NCBI GenBank assembly: GCA_937949545.1
Contig: CALEDR010000037.1
Location: forward strand, 1 to 64,000
DNA length: 64,000 nucleotides
Direction of reading: 5' to 3'
Source of the DNA: an uncultured Phycisphaerae bacterium
GTDB taxonomy: Bacteria > Planctomycetota > Phycisphaerae > Sedimentisphaerales > Anaerohalosphaeraceae
Numbering within the stretch: the stretch's first letter is position 1; the number at the start of each line of letters is the position of its first letter. Below the pieces are notes generated by a model. The model had not been told where the DNA came from. It ran no database searches and worked only from the letters and a program-made list of their open reading frames with translations. The position numbers were made by a program, and so were the translations under genes. Shown one piece after another: positions 1,815-11,800 of the stretch.

Positions 1815-2891
1815 ATGGACTTTGCCGTCATTCTGGCAGGCGGCTGCGGGCAGCGGCTGTGGCCTTTGAGCCGTCAGTCTCGACCGAAGCAGATGCTAAA
1901 ACTCCTGAATGGCCGAACGCTTCTGTGGGACAGCTTCGAACGGCTGAATCGGCTTTTCGACCTCCGTAATATCCTGGTTTTAACGAATGCGGAGTATGCC
2001 GAGCAGGTTTCCGAAAACCTGAGTGAACTGCCCAAAGACAATATCATTCCGGAGCCGTGTGTTCGTGATACGGCGGGAGCCGTCGGTCTGGCGGCGGCTG
2101 TCCTTCAAAAAACGGACCCGGAAGCGGTCATGGCAGTGGTGACTTCGGACCATATTCTCCAGCCGGCAGAACCCTTTTTGGATGCTCTTCAGACCGCAAT
2201 CCATTTTGTGAAAGAGCACCCCGAAGCCCTGCTGACTTTTGGAATCAAACCCACTTTTTCGGCAACCCAGTACGGCTATATTCGTCTGGAGATTCAAGAA
2301 GGGAAAAGCCGGATTTTTCCGGTTGCCGAATTTCGGGAAAAACCCGATCAAAAAACCGCAGAACGATTTCTGGCCCAAAGCGGGTATTTCTGGAACTCAG
2401 GGATGTTTGTCTGGAAGGCCAAAACGATTTTGAAGCATCTGAAGACGTTTTTGCCTGAATCGACGGAGCCGCTGGAAAAAATCCGTTCCGCCTGGGGAGG
2501 GCCGGAGCAGTACTCGGCTTTGGAGGAATGGTTTCCCCGTCTTCCGAACATCAGTATCGACTATGCCGTTCTGGAAAAGGCTCCTCAGATTTATGGGATA
2601 CCGCTGTCGTGCCGCTGGCTGGATGTGGGGTCCTTTGCAGCTCTGGCCGACATTGTCTCCTCGGATTCCAATCAGAATACGGTCATTGCCGGTCAGTATT
2701 GTTTGCTGGATTGCCGAAATACGATTGTGGCTACGGAATCGCCTGACCATTTGATTGCGATGATTGGGATGGAAGATGTTATCGTCGTCCACAGCCCGGA
2801 TGCGACCCTGATTTGTCCGCTTCATCAGGCCCATCGACTCAAAGAACTCCTCCGCCGGCTGGAGAGCGAAGGCAAAAGAAACTATCTGTAA
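1815..2891 (+). CDS. Mannose-1-phosphate guanylyltransferase
   Basis: Predicted to make GDP-mannose from mannose-1-phosphate and GTP for glycan synthesis. The nucleotidyltransferase signature LAGGCGQRLWPLSRQSRPKQ sits at residues 8-27, followed by VVTSDHIL (metal/nucleotide site region), FREKPD, WNSGMFVWKA and SIDYAVLEKA, all in the order seen in ManC/ManB-type enzymes. At 358 residues it has only the GT-A catalytic part plus the short left-handed beta-helix tail; the C-terminal cupin (isomerase) domain of bifunctional ManC is absent. The start is set by AAAGGAGACAGG ahead of the ATG. The next gene begins 17 bases downstream, so co-transcription is likely. Confidence 0.93.
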   Translation: MDFAVILAGGCGQRLWPLSRQSRPKQMLKLLNGRTLLWDSFERLNRLFDLRNILVLTNAEYAEQVSENLSELPKDNIIPEPCVRDTAGAVGLAAAVLQKTDPEAVMAVVTSDHILQPAEPFLDALQTAIHFVKEHPEALLTFGIKPTFSATQYGYIRLEIQEGKSRIFPVAEFREKPDQKTAERFLAQSGYFWNSGMFVWKAKTILKHLKTFLPESTEPLEKIRSAWGGPEQYSALEEWFPRLPNISIDYAVLEKAPQIYGIPLSCRWLDVGSFAALADIVSSDSNQNTVIAGQYCLLDCRNTIVATESPDHLIAMIGMEDVIVVHSPDATLICPLHQAHRLKELLRRLESEGKRNYL

Positions 2892-2908
2892 TCGGCAAGG
2901 GCCTTCAA

Positions 2909-4096
2909 ATGCGGTTTTTGGCGATTGACCACGGGGACAAAAGGACGGGGCTGGCGATATGTGACGCCTCTGAACGGGTTGTCTCTCCTTTGACGGTGCT
3001 GGAAGGGGCTGAAAACTCCCCGACTGGGATTCGCAGGGCTCTTGAATCTTATCGACTTGATGCCGCAGTCATCGGTCTGCCTTACAATATGGACGGAACG
3101 GAAGGACCGCGTGCAGCGAAGGTGCGCCGATTTGCGGAGGAACTGAAAAAATCTCTTCCGCTGCCGATTCTTTTCTTCGACGAGCGGCTGAGCAGTTTCG
3201 AGGCGCAGGAGAAATTGGCCGCTATGGAGCTTACCCGAAAAAAACGAAAGAAGCGGATGGATGCCGTGGCGGCGGCGGCGATTCTGGAGGGGTTTCTGGA
3301 GGCCCGTAAACAGGCGTTGGCGGAATTTCCCGGACGGTTTCTCCGAATTTCAGATGAAGAATCGCTGGCCCGGGAGGTGCTGTCGGAGTTTCTTTCCTGT
3401 GCACAACGGGTGCTCAGGGAGAAAGGCCGCTTTGCAGTCGCTCTATGCGGGGGACGAACTCCTCGGCGTTTTTTTGAGCATCTGAGCCGATCAGCCGATG
3501 CCCAAAAGATTGACTGGGAAAACGTGTATTGGTTCTGGACAGATGAGCGAGCCGTAAGTCCTTCCGATGCAGCGAGCAATTATCGGCTGGCCGCGGAAAC
3601 TTTTCTGAAACCCCTGCGCATCCCTCAGGAACGAGTTTATCGGATGGAGGGGGAGGCATCCGATCTGCAGGAAGCGGCGGCCGGCTATGAAAAAAAACTG
3701 CGGGAGGTTTTCGGTTTACAGCCCGGGCAGGTTCCGGTGCTGGATTTGATTCTGCTGGGAGTCGGCACCGACGGCCATATTGCTTCCCTTTTTCCTGGAA
3801 CCGACGTGCTTTCAGACAGGCAATCCCTCGTTCGGGCGGTCCGCAGCCCTGACGGATTGAACCGTCTGACCCTGACGGTTCCGGTGATTCAGAATGCCGG
3901 TTCAATTCTGGTTGTGCTCAGCGGAACGGAAAAGGCGCCGATTCTCTGTACCTTGCTGACCCATCCGCCGGCTCCAGCGGTTTATCCGGCTCACTGCCTC
4001 TGGCCGGTTCTTTCGAGGACGGTTTGGGTTGCGGATGCGGCGGCGGCTTCTCTGCTGGGGGAACGGCCGGAGAGCGGGGTTTCGAGCGGCTTGTAG
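2909..4096 (+). CDS. RuvX/YqgF nuclease domain fused to 6-phosphogluconolactonase
   Basis: A 395-residue two-domain protein. Residues 1-135 are a RuvX/YqgF RNase H-fold domain: FLAIDHGDKRTGLAICD (Asp7), VIGLPYNMDGTEGPRA, FFDERLSSFEAQ (Glu92) and KRMDAVAAAAILEGFL (Asp118), so the acidic triad is intact. Residues about 145-395 are a 6-phosphogluconolactonase (pentose phosphate pathway): ALCGGRTPRRFFEHL, WENVYWFWTDERAV and LLGVGTDGHIASLFPG. No stop or restart signal separates them. I chose ATG 2909 because the RuvX domain starts exactly there; an in-frame start at 2813 lies inside the upstream gene. RuvX usually acts in 16S rRNA 5'-end processing or Holliday junction work, with no known link to the lactonase. 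The 3' end overlaps a convergent gene by 106 bases. Confidence 0.9.
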   Translation: MRFLAIDHGDKRTGLAICDASERVVSPLTVLEGAENSPTGIRRALESYRLDAAVIGLPYNMDGTEGPRAAKVRRFAEELKKSLPLPILFFDERLSSFEAQEKLAAMELTRKKRKKRMDAVAAAAILEGFLEARKQALAEFPGRFLRISDEESLAREVLSEFLSCAQRVLREKGRFAVALCGGRTPRRFFEHLSRSADAQKIDWENVYWFWTDERAVSPSDAASNYRLAAETFLKPLRIPQERVYRMEGEASDLQEAAAGYEKKLREVFGLQPGQVPVLDLILLGVGTDGHIASLFPGTDVLSDRQSLVRAVRSPDGLNRLTLTVPVIQNAGSILVVLSGTEKAPILCTLLTHPPAPAVYPAHCLWPVLSRTVWVADAAAASLLGERPESGVSSGL

Positions 4097-4797
4097 CAGC
4101 CGAGGATTCTGCACCCCCGTTTTTGACAGAGGCTGATGAGCCGCTGAGCCTGGCTGTTCTCTTTTACAAAAAGAAAGGCCTGTTCCGCCGACGAAGCAAT
4201 CATATTGCGGTCCGGATGACCGTCCAAATAAGGGGCGTTAATCAGAATCAGTTCGTATTGATTTTTCACCTGCCGAAGAAGGGGGGCCAGATTCATCTGT
4301 CGCGTTTGGTCAAAATAATGTGCCGGAACCAGAAACAGATTGTCCAGGTCGGATTCCACCGGCAGGGCGGTTAAGCCGTTGGAGGAGGAGGTTGCGAACG
4401 CCTTCCAGACGGCGTTGCGTTTGGTGTCCAAATCAATCAGCAGGCAGCGGCATTTAGCCTGACTGGAAAGCAGGGCCAGCCGGATCGGAATGGTGACCGG
4501 CAGACACTCCAGTCCCGCTGCCGCCAAAAGAACAGTTTTAGGTTTCGAGGGCTCTTTCTTCAGGATTTCAAAGAGCTGCAGTTCGCTGTGCAGAAATGTC
4601 CCAAACGTCTGATTGGAGGTTTGCGAAGCGGCTTTTCGGGAACGAAAAGGACGAAGCGGACGAATCAGTACAGCGATTAAGACGGAGGCAAAGAAAAGAA
4701 CGAGAAGCAGATAGGTCCAGACTGTTCCGAAAATTGTATTGAACCATCCCTGGAATCCGCTGGCCTGCATTGCCTCAAACATGGCAACTATCCGCAT
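3991..4797 (-). CDS. Membrane-anchored degenerate BY-kinase (CpsD/CapB)-like protein
   Basis: A 268-residue protein with one membrane helix at about residues 25-47 (FGTVWTYLLLVLFFASVLIAV), then a cytosolic domain resembling the P-loop domain of bacterial tyrosine kinases of exopolysaccharide systems. LLIDLDTKRNAVWKAF matches the Walker A' strand and ELILINAPYLDGHPD matches the Walker B/'DTPP' strand. The Walker A lysine-serine/threonine motif is missing: the segment reads AAAGLECLPVTIP. It therefore probably does not hydrolyse ATP in the normal way. It overlaps the end of the coiled-coil gene by 10 bases (ATGCGGATAG), which suggests translational coupling; ATG 4782 is an alternative start. 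A regulatory role in polysaccharide export is an inference. Confidence 0.65.
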   Translation of the reverse strand: MRIVAMFEAMQASGFQGWFNTIFGTVWTYLLLVLFFASVLIAVLIRPLRPFRSRKAASQTSNQTFGTFLHSELQLFEILKKEPSKPKTVLLAAAGLECLPVTIPIRLALLSSQAKCRCLLIDLDTKRNAVWKAFATSSSNGLTALPVESDLDNLFLVPAHYFDQTRQMNLAPLLRQVKNQYELILINAPYLDGHPDRNMIASSAEQAFLFVKENSQAQRLISLCQKRGCRILGCYKPLETPLSGRSPSREAAAASATQTVLERTGQRQ

Positions 4798-6254
4798 GGA
4801 AACTCAATATAAACGCCGGGATGGTTTCGGCAGAACTGTTCAATATCTCGACGAACGATTTCGGCAATAAGGGAATCGCCGTTGGCCGGCCGGGTTGTTC
4901 TGACGGCGGAACCTGCGGGCTCAAAAACAGGATGGAGGGGCTGCGGCCTGGGAGCCGATTTGTCGGCCTTTTCGGCAGGCGGAGTGCTGAGGAACTGATG
5001 CACCACGCTGCGAACGGACTTATTCGGATCAATCCGGCTGCTTGTCGGCGGCTGACGGCGGGCGCTGCTCTCTCTTCGCTGGGCGGAAAGAATCTGTTCA
5101 GATAGGTCAAAGCGGGGGATTGCAAAGTCTTTCTTGTCTTCCTCCAAAGCGGCTTCCTGCGGTTTCGGAGACGAATCCGCTTTGGTTTCTTCCGCCTCGA
5201 AAACAGATGAATTGGTCTGTATGTCCGCTTCCGAAATTGCTGCGTCAAAATCTTCCTGTTCGGATGCGAGCTGCTCGCAAACCCGCTCGTATTTCGTTTT
5301 CCAGTTTTCCGCTTCTTTGGTTTTTTTCTCCAGCCCCTCCCGAAGTGCAGCCTCAGTCTTCAGCGAAACTGCCTGCTGTGTGAGAAGATTTTGCTCCAGC
5401 CGCTGAATCTGCCGTTCCAGAGAAGCATTCTGCTGTCGGAGATGTTCGATTTCCTGATGGAAGGCATCAACGGTTTTTTGAAGGGCTTCCGTTTTGTCCT
5501 GAAGCGAGTTTATTTCCTCCTGCAGAGACATTTCGCGGTTTTGCAGGGATTGTCGGATTTGCTGTTCTGCGGCGAGACGATCGGAAATTTGTATTTTTTC
5601 TTTGCGGAGGTGTTCGTTTTCCTCTTTCAGGGCTGAAAGGAGAAGGTTCAGGTTTTCGATCTGGTCTTGTGCCTGTTCAAGGCGGCTTTTGAAGTGTTCC
5701 GTTTCCTGCTGAAGTGTTTTGAATCGGCTGTTTTCTTCTGTCAAAACGGAACAGGTTTCCTGCGTTTGCTGAAGCGTCTTCTGAAGACGGTCAATCTCCT
5801 CTGTCAGCTGCCGAATGTGGTTTTCCTGCTCCTGACAGGTTTGAGAAAGATTTTCTTTTTGTTCCCTGAGCAGGCGAAGGGTTTTTTTGAGTGTTTCAAC
5901 CTCTTGGGTGAGGGAGGGATTTTCCGTGTTAGTGCTAGTATTTGTCAGCGGTGTTTCCGGAGAACCCATCCGTTCTGCGGTGTCGGACAACGCATAGGAT
6001 TCAGACGAGGTCTCATGGAGTATATCCCCGCTGATGGCGTCAGACTCTGCCATCAAGTCGGATTCGGGTTTAATCCCGGGATTCTGGTTTTCTGAAGCGT
6101 CCGGTTCGGTATGGTCAGGTTGGGATGCGATAAGAGGTGTATCTGGGTCGATAGACTCCGGTTCTTCCTTCTCCTTCTCTTCTTTTCTGAGAGCTCGAAG
6201 AATTTCTGCCCTGCACTGAAGAATATCCTCATCCAGATTATCCTCTGGTATCAT
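4788..6254 (-). CDS. Coiled-coil protein with C-terminal BY-kinase-type motif
   Basis: A 488-residue acidic protein without signal peptide or membrane helix. Residues about 1-115 are disordered and rich in Ser/Glu/Pro; residues 115-345 form one long coiled coil (TLKKTLRLLREQKENL onward, with regular Leu/Ile heptads); then comes a Pro/Ser linker. Near the C-terminus is RFDLSEQILSAQRRESSARR, resembling the conserved stretch in front of the kinase core in some planctomycete tyrosine autokinases, and finally a short folded tail (DIEQFCRNHPGVYIEF). Its stop overlaps the start of the degenerate kinase-like gene, so the two probably form a complex. AGGGAG lies about 8 bases before the ATG. Molecular function unknown. 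Confidence 0.7.
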   Translation of the reverse strand: MIPEDNLDEDILQCRAEILRALRKEEKEKEEPESIDPDTPLIASQPDHTEPDASENQNPGIKPESDLMAESDAISGDILHETSSESYALSDTAERMGSPETPLTNTSTNTENPSLTQEVETLKKTLRLLREQKENLSQTCQEQENHIRQLTEEIDRLQKTLQQTQETCSVLTEENSRFKTLQQETEHFKSRLEQAQDQIENLNLLLSALKEENEHLRKEKIQISDRLAAEQQIRQSLQNREMSLQEEINSLQDKTEALQKTVDAFHQEIEHLRQQNASLERQIQRLEQNLLTQQAVSLKTEAALREGLEKKTKEAENWKTKYERVCEQLASEQEDFDAAISEADIQTNSSVFEAEETKADSSPKPQEAALEEDKKDFAIPRFDLSEQILSAQRRESSARRQPPTSSRIDPNKSVRSVVHQFLSTPPAEKADKSAPRPQPLHPVFEPAGSAVRTTRPANGDSLIAEIVRRDIEQFCRNHPGVYIEFPCG

Positions 6255-6338: not shown

Positions 6339-7565
6339 TCATGAATCTTCAGGGCCTATGCTTACTTGTGTAAACTTTTCGAGAGGATAGTCTCGAATCA
6401 ACTGATTAATTTGCTCAACGGTGACGGATTTTACGGCTTGAACATCCTCGGCTACGGGACGGTATGATTTCAGATAAATCCAGTTAAAACCAAGGCTTAC
6501 AAGCCGCCCCATCGGACGTTCGGCTTCGAGAGTAATTGCACTGAGCACTTTGTTTTTTGCGGCTGTCAGTTCGTTTTCCGAAATGCCGTTCTGCTTCAGT
6601 TCATCAAAAATATTCTGGACAATCTGGAGCACTTTCTGTCGATTTTCGGTTGGGCAGCGAATATAACTGGATAAAATCCCCACTCCATCCATCGCTTCAC
6701 AGTGCATCACGGCGGTATCAGCAACAGCCGGGTCCACCAGCGCCCAGAAAAAGCGTGAGCCGGTGGAATCTCCGATGATGACGGATAAAAGAGAGGCCGC
6801 AAATCGGCGGGGGTCCTGCATGGAGACGGAAGGACTCATCAGGCAAATATGTTCACAGGTTAGTCCTCTTTGGGTCTGACGCTTCTGAAGTCCGGTTCCT
6901 TCAAAAAAGGCAAGTGTACGTCCGACTTCCATCGGTTCCCAGGCACTGCAGAGCCGTTCAATCAGCCGACGCGTCTGGTCAAAGTCAAATCGCCCGCAGC
7001 AGGCCGCCACCAGGTTATTCGGGGCGTACCGGCGGCTGAAATAGTCCCGCATTTGTTCCGCTGTCAGATTTCCGATGGTTTCCTCGGTTCCGAGAACGCT
7101 GTTGGCACAGGGATGGGAACCAAAGTGAAGCTGTCTGGCCTGATCAATCACCTGAAACTCCGGCAGGTCCTTGTACATGGCAATCTCTTCGAGGATGACC
7201 TTTTTCTCGACGTCAAAGTCATCGGTTCGAAGAGCGGGCCGCATCAGCCGACACCACAGCTCCACCGCCGCCGAAAAAAATTCCGGCAGGACGGCGGCAT
7301 AATACACGGTATTTTCTTCGCTGGTGAAGGCGTTGAATTTGGCCCCGAGCCGATCGAAGGCCTCGTTGACTTCTACCGATGAAAGGTCCTCCGTGCCCTT
7401 AAAGAGCATATGTTCGAGAAAGTGGGATACGCCGCTGAGGGAAGGGGTTTCATCTCTGGAGCCGGTTCGAACAAAAAAGCCGACGGCAGCGGACTGGGCG
7501 TTGGGATTAATTTCTCCAATCAGTGTTAATCCGTTTTTCAGCTGGACATGTCGGAACTGCATCAA
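6339..7565 (-). CDS. M16 family zinc metallopeptidase (active-site subunit)
   Basis: A 408-residue pitrilysin/processing-peptidase family protein. The inverted zinc motif HFLEH is intact (His48, Glu51, His52, in SGVSHFLEHMLFKGT), and the distal glutamate region ILEEIAMYKDLPEFQ is present. The second half contains the ARG-type loop and the usual SFNWIYLKSYRPV region. No signal peptide is visible, so a cytoplasmic or unusual location is likely. Its start overlaps the end of the neighbouring M16 gene by 4 bases (ATGA), so the two are translated together and likely form the heterodimer usual for this family, with this subunit supplying the zinc site. Confidence 0.92.
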   Translation of the reverse strand: MMQFRHVQLKNGLTLIGEINPNAQSAAVGFFVRTGSRDETPSLSGVSHFLEHMLFKGTEDLSSVEVNEAFDRLGAKFNAFTSEENTVYYAAVLPEFFSAAVELWCRLMRPALRTDDFDVEKKVILEEIAMYKDLPEFQVIDQARQLHFGSHPCANSVLGTEETIGNLTAEQMRDYFSRRYAPNNLVAACCGRFDFDQTRRLIERLCSAWEPMEVGRTLAFFEGTGLQKRQTQRGLTCEHICLMSPSVSMQDPRRFAASLLSVIIGDSTGSRFFWALVDPAVADTAVMHCEAMDGVGILSSYIRCPTENRQKVLQIVQNIFDELKQNGISENELTAAKNKVLSAITLEAERPMGRLVSLGFNWIYLKSYRPVAEDVQAVKSVTVEQINQLIRDYPLEKFTQVSIGPEDS

Positions 7566-8809
7566 GACTCCTGTTGGTTCTGAAGCGACTGAAGCGGCTG
7601 CGGGCCGAGTGAAACAAATGTAAATTCCTGACTGAAAGGCCCGTCCAGGAATTCCTGAACGGTCTGTGTTGTAAGGGATTCGATGGCCCGGCGGATTTCC
7701 TCCAGAGGCCGAACCCGTTTCAGGTAAAACCAGTCTGCCGCCAGCCGGGAAGCGCGGGCGGAGGTTGATTCGTTCTGCATAATCAGCGTGCTTTTCAGGC
7801 CTGTCTTGGCACGAAGCAGTTCGTCTTCGCTGATTCCGTTCCGAAGCCGGCGGAATTCGGAAAGAATGACGGACAGGGTTTCTTCCGCTTTGTCCGGTGT
7901 AGTTCCGGCGTATCCGGAAATGCCGGCGAAGGAACGAAGGGAATGATAGCGGGTTCCTACGGCATAGCAGAGTCCTCTTTTTTCCCGGACTTCCGTAAAA
8001 AGACGGCTGCTCATTCCTCCGCCCAGAACCGCACAGGCCGCCATCACAGAGTAATAGAGCGGCGAGTCACAGGGCGGGACCTTTGTCATAAAACCGATAT
8101 GCACCTGTGCACCGGGATTCGGGATGTGATGATAACCGTCGGCGGCTGCCTGCGGGGGCGGAGGGCATTCCTGACAGGCGGGGGTATGACCGAACAGCGT
8201 TTCAATGTGTCTGAGAAACGCGTGCGTGTCAATTTTCCCCGCCGCCGACAGAACGGCTCCGGACCAGGCAAACAGCCGCTCTTTGAGAGCTCGGGTTTGC
8301 GGTGGGGTCAACTGTTGAAGGTCCTCTTCTTTTCCGGCGCACGGGCGTCCGAGCGGGTCTGGATAGAACCGTTCATACAGGCAGACACTGACCTTTTGAC
8401 GCGGGTCGTCGTCGAGGGCTTCCAGCTCCTGAAGGGCCAGCTGCCGGCTGGGCTCAAACAGGTCCTCTTGCAGACGCGGACGCAGGAGAATGTCGGCATA
8501 CAGTTCGAGGGCTCTGAAAAGGTTTTCGGATTGTAGGGAACCGCCATAGAAGAGATATTCCGGGCTTACACTGCTTTGGCGGTGAAGGCCGATACTGTCC
8601 AGCTCTTCCACCAGCCGACGGCTGTTGTAGGGTCCGGCTCCCCGGAAAAGCCAGTCATTCAGAACCGCGGCGGCTCCGCAGCATCCGTCCGGAAGGGCTG
8701 CACTGCCGCCGGGCAGCAGAAAAGCAAAGGAAGCGGATTCTACGCCGCTGACGGGCTGGACCAGAACGGTCAGACCGCCGGGCAGAGTCATTTGTTCTAC
8801 GGGTTCCAT
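7562..8809 (-). CDS. M16 family peptidase-like protein lacking the zinc motif (partner subunit)
   Basis: About 415 residues, paralogous to the downstream M16 peptidase. Where the active subunit has HFLEH, this one reads CGAAAVLNDWLFRGAGPY, so no zinc site is formed. The C-terminal half is well conserved: MSSRLFTEVREKRGLCYAVG is the R/Y-containing substrate-binding block of the family. This matches the inactive partner of bacterial M16B heterodimers. I chose ATG 8809 (MEPVEQMTLPGGL), where the domain begins; a TTG at 8866, overlapping the SMC stop, would add 19 residues. It ends with a 4-base overlap with the active subunit. Confidence 0.87.
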   Translation of the reverse strand: MEPVEQMTLPGGLTVLVQPVSGVESASFAFLLPGGSAALPDGCCGAAAVLNDWLFRGAGPYNSRRLVEELDSIGLHRQSSVSPEYLFYGGSLQSENLFRALELYADILLRPRLQEDLFEPSRQLALQELEALDDDPRQKVSVCLYERFYPDPLGRPCAGKEEDLQQLTPPQTRALKERLFAWSGAVLSAAGKIDTHAFLRHIETLFGHTPACQECPPPPQAAADGYHHIPNPGAQVHIGFMTKVPPCDSPLYYSVMAACAVLGGGMSSRLFTEVREKRGLCYAVGTRYHSLRSFAGISGYAGTTPDKAEETLSVILSEFRRLRNGISEDELLRAKTGLKSTLIMQNESTSARASRLAADWFYLKRVRPLEEIRRAIESLTTQTVQEFLDGPFSQEFTFVSLGPQPLQSLQNQQES

Positions 8810-8858
8810 TTTGGTTCTTTCATTCGGGGTTGGAAGACTCTTTGGGTTCGGCAACCAT

Positions 8859-11800
8859 TCAGGCAACCGCCGTGTCTGCGGCGTTTTCTATGCTTTCAAA
8901 CTGAACACTGATTTTTTTGCTGACTCCCTGCGTCTGCATCGTAATGCCGTACAGAATATCGGCGATGCTCATGGTTCTTTTGGAGTGTGTAATAATGATA
9001 AACTGGCTGTGCTGCTTGTATTCCTGAACAATCAGGTTAAAGCGTTCATTGTTGGCTTCGTCCAGAGCCGCGTCGACCTCGTCCAGCACGCAGAACGGCG
9101 ACGGTTTGCTTTGAAAGACGGCGAAAAGCAGGGCAATGGCGGTCATGGTTTTTTCGCCGCCGCTGAGCAGGCTGATGGTTCGCGTTTCTTTTCCGGGGGG
9201 ACGGGCCACAATCTCGATGCCGCTTTCGAGCAGGTCCTCCGGGTTTTCCAGAAAGATATCGGCTTTGCCGCCGCCGAACAGTTTTCGGAAAATCTGCTGA
9301 AAGTGCGTCCGAACCTGTTCAAAAGTGGCGGCAAATTTTTCCCGGCTTTCCCGGTTAATCCGCTCAATAAGCTGCTGAAGCTGAGTTTTGCTCTGCCGGA
9401 GGTCTTCCGCCTGGGTTTCAAGGAAAGCTGCCCGTTTTTCCAGCTCTTCCTGCTGGTCGATGGCCTCCACATTCACATGTCCCAGCCGTTCGATTTTTTC
9501 CCGGAGCCCACGAATTTCCTCCTGAACAGCCTCCCAGTCGGTCTGCTCTTCCCGGAAGGTTTCGTATTGGGCCAGGAGGTCCATCTGGAGTTCCTCCCGA
9601 ACCCGCTGCATCAGGTCTTCCTGACGGACCTGGATCTGTCCTAAGTCCATCTGAATCTGATGGACGGCTTCTTCGATTTCCAGCTGAAGGCGCCGGCTCT
9701 GACGGAGATGCTGTTCATTTTCCTTCTGCTGGGCCTGAAGTATTTTGATTTCTTTGTGCAGAGAGCGGCTCTGTTTCTGGGCGGTTTCTTTTTCCAGATA
9801 AAGACGGTTCAGCTCGGACTCGGTCTGCAAAATCATCCGTTCGGCCTGAACGGCCTGTTCCTGACTGCTGTGCCGCTCTGTTCGGGCGGTCTCCAGAACC
9901 ATTCGGCTGTGCTGGAGCTGGCTCTGCAGCGAGGCAATCTGCTGATGAATAGACTTTTGCTGTTCGGCGGCCTGTCCATGCCGGATTTTCAAATCCGTCA
10001 GGGCGGCGGTCAGTTTTTCCATTTCTGCTTTCTTGCCCTCCAGCGCTTTCTGAAGGGCGGAGATTTGCTCCGTGCGCTGACGGTTGAGCTCTTCCAGTTC
10101 CTTCAGTTTGCCCTGCGATTCATGTTCCCGCCGGACGGACTGCTGAATTTCTTCTTCCAGCTGCTTCATTTCTTCGAGAATCAGCGGCTGTTCATCCGTC
10201 AGCCGTTTGAGGTTTTGTTCCATAACCCGCAGCTGCGATTCGGCATCCACGCGTTCCGTGGAGGCCTCATAGATGCTTGTGCGGAGATCCTGACAGACTT
10301 TGGACAGATGCATATATTTCTGGTCGGCCTGCTGGAGATGCTCTTCCTGCAGGCGGATTTGCTCCTGAAGATCCCGAAGTTTTGATTCAATCTGTTCAAT
10401 TCTGCTTTTTCGAGACAGCAGACCTGCCGACCGGCTCACAGGGCCGACGGAAAGAAGCATTCCATTGGTTACAAGATGGCCCTGCGGGGTCACAAACTGA
10501 TACTCTTTTCCGAGCCGGGCGGCCAAATCCAGAGCTGTTTCCGGAGAATCCACCAGCAGGACTTTTCCGAGCAGGGACCAGCAGACCGGAGCATAGCGTT
10601 CTTCAAAACGGATGAATTCAATGAGCCGGCCCCGCACGCCGTTCAGTTCCCGAATGTCGAGACAATCCTGGAAGGGCTCGTAACGGTCCAGGCAGATTGC
10701 CTGAAGACGGTTTTTCAGGGCGGAATGAATGGAGGGGTCTTCCAAAAACCGTCGGGTGTCATTGACCAGAAGGGCCTGCAGGGCGGGACCGAGTGCGGCT
10801 TCCACTGCCGGCGCATACTCCACGTCCGTGCGGAGGATATCCGCCAGCACGCCGTCCAGCAGCCCGGATTGTCCGTTTCGACGGTGCTGATGGAGAATGG
10901 TTTTGACCGTTTCGCTCAATCCTTCCCGTCGATTCTCCATTTCACGCAGGACTTTCCATTCCGCCGTCAGGGCGCTTCGCTGCTCCTTGAGTTGTTCGAG
11001 TTTTTTTCTCAGGAGTGTTTCTTCCTGTCCTACGGTTTCCATCGCCGCTTTTTGCTCGGAGAGGGTCTGGTTGAGCTTCTGCAGGACGTTTTGGATTTCT
11101 TCCAGACGTGTCTGCAGTCGGGCTTTTTCGGTAAGCCAGAGGGCCGTCTGTTCCTGGGCCTGAGCGGCTTTTCCGCTCAGACGGGTTTTTTGCCCGGTCA
11201 GATTATTTCGGTAATGATTCAGACTCTGGATTTCGTTGTGGAGCTGGGCCGTTCGGCGCACGATGTCCAGAATGCCGGATTTTTCGTCATCGAGCTGCGC
11301 CTGGATTTCCGCATAGATTCGGCCGACCTGCCGTATCTGCTCCTCCTGCTGCTGCATCTGACGGTTGAGTTCGTTCAGGCGGTCCTGCCCAGTCTGCATG
11401 TCCTGTCGAAGGACCTGGATATGGTCCAGGAATTGTGAGCATTGACGGCCGGCGCTTCGAATTTGTTCGTCGGCGCGGCTTTTTCTTTTTTGGAGCTCGG
11501 TGAATCGGTCTTTCAGGAACCGGATTCGCTCAATCTGCTGTTCGATTCGACTGCGGGCGGCAATCAAGGTATTATCCCAGCGGCTGATTTCCGCTTCCAT
11601 TTGGCTGATTCGGCTGTGCAGAGCGCTGTCGGCTGCCTCCCGCCGGGATATCTCTGCGGTATTCTGCGCAAAACGTTCCTGCCACTGCGCCAGGATGCGT
11701 TCTTTCTCCTGCTGCTGGGTTTTGAACTTATGAAACTCGGCGAGAGAAAAACGGACTCTGAGCTCTTTGAGGCGATTGGAGTATTCCAGGAAATTGCGTG

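Follow-up and report, generated by a model that had tools for sequence, protein, structure and literature searches.

A composite ruvX::pgl gene in the Anaerohalosphaeraceae, a probably recurrent fusion across unrelated pathways

The forward-strand open reading frame at positions 2909-4096 of the window (the whole 64,000-nucleotide stretch analysed here, from an uncultured Phycisphaerae bacterium) is a genuine composite gene, ruvX::pgl, in which a complete RuvX/YqgF domain and a complete 6-phosphogluconolactonase (Pgl) domain are placed end to end. The whole explanation that accounts best for this gene, and that we regard as likely, is a fusion of two neighbouring genes through the loss of a stop codon and of a spacer, with both halves working as independent enzymes and being retained because each is needed.

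Architecture of the fused protein

Direct translation of this reading frame yields a chain of 395 residues, stop-free throughout. In Pfam, the N-terminal part matches PF03652 (RuvX) with an E-value of 1.1e-38 and 133 bits, for a cut-off of 29.2, and the C-terminal part matches PF01182 (Glucosamine_iso) with an E-value of 8.1e-64. The NCBIfam models TIGR00250 (RuvX) and TIGR01198 (pgl) reach 102.2 and 181.6 bits respectively, above the curated cut-off of 43.25 for the former and the equivalog cut-off of 124.45 for the latter. The deaminase NagB was ruled out as an identity for the C-terminal domain, TIGR00502 giving 58.1 bits versus a cut-off of 236.9. The initial annotation, which had read RuvX/YqgF and 6-phosphogluconolactonase as a single 395-residue chain, is thus borne out by the open frame and by the passing of both family cut-offs. 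It had also proposed a linker of about 10 residues; the linker is indeed short, but its length is 17 residues between the Pfam edges and about 3 residues in the structural model. The features of the gene and of its upstream region are collected in Table 1.

Table 1. Coordinates of the fused gene and of its upstream elements in the window
Feature	Position	Strand	Basis or remark
manC-like sugar-nucleotide transferase (NTP_transferase + ManC beta-helix)	1815..2891	+	directly upstream of the fusion
AAGGG, plausible as a ribosome-binding site (7 bases to the ATG)	2897..2901	+	direct sequence reading
RuvX/YqgF domain, residues 1-131 (PF03652)	2909..3301	+	Pfam, NCBIfam, alignment, structure matches
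Junction, residues 132-148: end of the RuvX helix (to 139), linker 140-142, first Pgl strand (143-147)	3302..3352	+	
6-phosphogluconolactonase domain, residues 149-373 by Pfam edges (PF01182)	3353..4027	+	Pfam, NCBIfam, alignment, structure matches
C-terminal tail (382-395) and stop, variable, mostly low-confidence	4052..4096	+	sequence, model

The motifs described in the initial annotation as intact in both domains proved invariant in an alignment of the 13 full-length fusion proteins: D7, D91, E92 and D118 of the RuvX domain are unchanged in 13/13, and so is the Pgl motif GxGxDGH (G284, G286, D288, G289, H290). The Asp and the His of GxGxDGH belong to the active site of 6-phosphogluconolactonase. 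According to two publications (PMC9601230, PMC3985635), the YqgF family is characterized by three conserved carboxylates, located on strand 1, at the end of strand 5 and on helix 3. Three such carboxylates are found here, namely D7, D91/E92 and D118, and the strand-5 position would be occupied by E92 or D91.

An AlphaFold2 model of the window protein, built from the 13 aligned fusion proteins, has a mean pLDDT of 88.5 and a pTM of 0.86, with both domains confidently folded. Its last RuvX helix spans residues 110-139 and is followed by the first Pgl strand at 143-147. A structure search matched the RuvX part to 7ess, 1vhx, 7w89 and 1nu0 with Z scores of 14-16; the match to 7ess (Z 15.8, rmsd 3.2 over 130 residues) identifies the RNase H-like YqgF fold, and 1vhx is comparably close (Z 15.3, rmsd 2.9 over 131 residues). 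The Pgl part was matched to 3tx2 and 3ico with a Z score of about 32. The window protein therefore shares with the RuvX/YqgF family (TIGR00250, PF03652) the complete domain, the invariant acids and the fold of 1vhx, 1nu0, 7ess and 7w89. Members of this family usually stand alone with about 140 residues, however, whereas the present version bears a C-terminal Pgl domain. It likewise shares with the DevB-type 6-phosphogluconolactonases (TIGR01198, PF01182) the complete domain and the fold (3tx2, 3ico, 1y89; Z about 30), but here, unlike in the rest of that family, a nuclease domain precedes it.

Both domains are under purifying selection. When the window genome (G000) is compared pairwise with its relatives G118, G117 and G119, dN/dS amounts to 0.04-0.09 for RuvX and to 0.15-0.20 for Pgl. 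Constraint is weaker at the junction, where only 17 codons give values of 0.22-1.14.

Copy number and genomic context

The window genome (2.84 Mb, 99.7% complete) was searched for separate ruvX and pgl genes, as the initial annotation had proposed. No second RuvX gene and no second PF01182 gene were found in its 52 contigs besides the fused gene, and the idea of a spare copy making one half dispensable was rejected, no duplicate having appeared in the genome searches. In each of the 14 genomes with the fusion, RuvX is matched once and PF01182 once above its cut-off; three of them (G093, G123, G124) have one further PF01182 match each under the cut-off. The zwf gene of the window genome lies on contig C18 and gnd on contig C2, both away from the fused gene. 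Among the 14 fusion genomes, gnd is present in all and zwf in 13, the remaining one being G123 (83% complete). With zwf and gnd on other contigs and a sole Pgl match, the fused gene appears to be the one source of a DevB-type lactonase for the oxidative pentose-phosphate pathway.

The stop of the manC-like gene ends 17 bases before the start of the fusion, a gap so short that the two genes probably share one transcript. At the other end, the last 35 codons of the fusion (3991-4096) overlap the 3' end of a convergent reading frame on the opposite strand (3991-4797, 268 aa, without Pfam match). Further downstream, also on the reverse strand, a coiled-coil-rich reading frame of 488 aa (4788-6254) shows weak Pfam matches below the cut-off only, and its homologues at related loci are highly variable in length, from about 390 to 1409 aa. 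Two adjacent reverse-strand reading frames (6339-8866) belong to one homology cluster with the look of M16-type peptidases, a name given by eye; this pair recurs downstream in many related loci with enough sequence.

Taxonomic distribution

The same architecture was sought in related genomes, a check called for by the initial annotation, and was found in 13 further genomes of the family. Among the 39 family genomes surveyed, ruvX::pgl is fused in 14 (G000, G093, G095, G100-G102, G116-G119, G122-G125), ruvX and pgl are separate neighbouring reading frames on the same strand, ruvX first, in 20, the situation is unsettled or non-adjacent in four (G107, G109, G110, G112), and one (G098) is without match. 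G116, in which the gene is split by contig ends, was counted as fused because its pgl contig starts in frame with the C-terminus of RuvX. The two genes are on different contigs in G112 and are cut by contig ends in G107; no Pgl of DevB type was found in G109 and G110, both of genus g9, of which G110 is 93% complete and may use another lactonase. Long-linker fusions suspected in genomes such as G092, G097 and G103, with open frames of 470, 454 and 451 aa, were discarded, as stops show separate reading frames.

Three close relatives of the window protein (92, 88 and 71% identical) share its architecture and its open frame through the junction. In the nearest unfused congener (G115), the RuvX frame is closed by a stop, and about 160-190 bases of spacer separate it from an independent Pgl start. 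Fused and unfused states coexist within the same genera, and in the outgroup genomes ruvX and pgl are non-adjacent in 9/9.

Outside the family, no fusion was found among the matches listed from 161 genomes of the order, 397 of the class and 392 of the phylum; these samples overlap and include the family itself, and they give the best matches, so that a fusion with a weak match could have escaped. A scan of named genomes considered the best 80 of at least 592 matching stretches. Among the matches listed, two (L108, L109) span both domains in one gene and correspond to G100 and G093 of the family; two others (L110, L111) also span both domains and correspond to G104 and G114, in which ruvX and pgl are adjacent but separate. 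A Desulfovibrio match (L125, residues 80-381) was rejected as a fusion, since it is by eye a plain Pgl reading frame without visible RuvX motif. No publication on a 6-phosphogluconolactonase-RuvX fusion, or on a fused RuvX in a Planctomycet, was found in open-licence PubMed Central, and the papers returned by a broader literature search were judged unrelated from their listings; the pairing apparently has not been described before in the literature searched.

Gene order and route to the fusion

In the wider order of Sedimentisphaerales, ruvX comes after uvrD-pgi-manC and pgl is located elsewhere, facing lysM-secDF-yajC-tgt. The sister families follow this pattern in the outgroups compared for gene order (G009, G010, G029, G030, G158, G160): ruvX stands behind pgi and manC, with uvrD too where the stretch reaches, and pgl mostly faces lysM-secDF-yajC-tgt. 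The manC-ruvX order recurs in sister families and in additional families of the class. Several family members outside the fused lineages (genera g4, g10, g12, g16) display pgi-manC-ruvX-pgl facing lysM, together with secDF-yajC-tgt where the stretch reaches, and this order is the two neighbourhoods joined. Genus g15 is similar except for an unassigned gene replacing manC; g1, g2, g3 and g14 have another downstream block beside ruvX/pgl, and the window's own lineage carries cysteine desulfurase-like and pfkB-type kinase-like genes (names by eye) ahead of manC. In a genome of a sister family (G128), ruvX is already near tgt-yajC-secDF, and in G015 and G016 ruvX and pgl share a contig at distances of about 10 and 17 kb. 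This order and this linkage imply that the join may predate the family.

The fusion would accordingly have arisen in steps. A rearrangement would have set pgl behind pgi-manC-ruvX on the same strand, the joined order itself being observed in the family. A deletion would then have taken out the stop codon of ruvX along with the spacer and a few initial Pgl codons, so merging the two frames, as the comparison of fused with unfused relatives indicates. The spacer in unfused relatives mostly measures about 130-400 bases, with 1.35 kb in one, and the aligned sequences suggest that the fusion cost the RuvX stop, this spacer and roughly ten Pgl residues, no more. Each half would finally have been kept because the genome has no other copy of that needed enzyme, and any return to separate genes would require a stop, a spacer and a start to be created anew.

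Recurrence of the fusion and competing explanations of its origin

The history of the fusion was examined on a two-gene tree of 44 genomes, built from concatenated RuvX and Pgl columns, with clades named after viewing. The fused state needs three changes on this tree, and a tree constrained to place all 14 fusions in a single clade is rejected (AU p = 0.0136). For these two reasons, at least two separate fusion events are probable. That a single ancient fusion later split several times is a quite improbable alternative. It gains from the fact that a minimum-change count of three cannot tell gain from loss, and from the tolerance of a single clade for the 12 fusions without the two g2 members (p = 0.107, not rejected). 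Nevertheless, it conflicts with the rejection of the 14-member clade, it must accommodate separate genes and spacers that are also found outside the fused lineages within the family, and it is costlier, every split demanding a new stop, a new spacer and a new start.

The product itself could be questioned in two other ways. Pgl might also be made alone from the fused gene, through an internal start or by cleavage: an in-frame ATG, GTG or TTG is present near the junction in 13/13 full-length fusions, and in a few of them (G093, G102, G117, G119) it is accompanied by a plausibly spaced purine-rich stretch. However, the 13 genes have no common position for a start with a ribosome-binding site, and the modelled linker has only about 3 residues, which makes a separate Pgl product very unlikely. 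An assembly or sequencing error that deleted a stop between two genes has a negligible probability, as the same open architecture, with the junction inside one contig, occurs in 12 other genomes, to which G116 can be added; the artefact was rejected on the ground that relatives share the open junction.

Independent enzymes or functional coupling

The RuvX half is predicted to be a nuclease of the type acting on pre-16S rRNA or branched nucleic acids, and the Pgl half to hydrolyse 6-phosphogluconolactone, between Zwf and Gnd. The two halves probably act as independent enzymes, and there is probably no channelling or signalling between them. Of the two readings offered in the initial annotation, the evidence favours the accidental fusion that persists through the need for both parts, given the sole copies, the purifying selection and the adjacency of the genes in unfused relatives. 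A coupling of NADPH supply to RNA/DNA work found no support: Pgl is joined to neither NADPH-producing dehydrogenase, zwf and gnd are elsewhere, and ruvX and pgl occupy unrelated neighbourhoods in the sister families examined.

In a broader and also unlikely form of coupling, the tether would benefit the cell, for example by co-regulating ribosome maturation with pentose-phosphate flux or by letting the self-association of one domain assemble the other. In its favour, at least two fusion events are probable, dimerisation of YqgF is reported in PMC9601230 to matter for activity in some species, and a distant family of the class, f24, keeps ruvX and pgl close in another orientation. Among the matches listed from 121 f24 genomes searched, 60 have both genes; they lie within 10 kb of one another in 49/60 (48 convergent, one with both genes on the same strand), on different contigs in 10 and further apart in one. 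In most f24 genomes with both genes listed, L194 and L200 for example, ruvX comes after manC with pgl tail to tail nearby. This repeated association of ruvX and pgl exceeds what the simplest accident predicts. The f24 genes mostly converge, however, and therefore have no common transcript, which argues against a link of the operon type. The two enzymes have neither a substrate nor a pathway in common; zwf and gnd are elsewhere; separate genes suffice in 20/39 family genomes; and the neighbouring pgi and manC could explain the site of pgl through sugar metabolism, without ruvX. The gene orders suggest, indeed, that pgl gathers with sugar-phosphate genes (pgi, manC) and that ruvX is a passenger. 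Since RuvX is a partner from outside the pathway of Pgl, functional coupling is unlikely. It would be a bold conjecture, to which we give little credence, that the pairing of ruvX and pgl came about more than once owing to a cooperation of their products, Pgl being tethered to, and perhaps assembling or regulating, an rRNA-processing nuclease.

Significance

The closest known parallel is the G6PD-6PGL fusion, described in PMC3148214 as the result of repeated independent fusions in apicomplexans, in metazoan H6PD and in Giardia/Trichomonas. As in ruvX::pgl, a 6-phosphogluconolactonase is joined to another enzyme, repeatedly. In that case the lactonase is joined to the enzyme one step ahead of it in its own pathway, whereas the partner found here is RuvX, a nucleic-acid nuclease with no common substrate. 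The composite gene ruvX::pgl is thus probably the outcome of recurrent fusion between unrelated pathways, which is a known kind of event and not a new mechanism. It offers a natural test of how far functional linkage may be deduced from a gene fusion, as in the 'Rosetta stone' argument, and it calls for caution in function prediction and annotation, as one name on a fused gene may hide the other activity.
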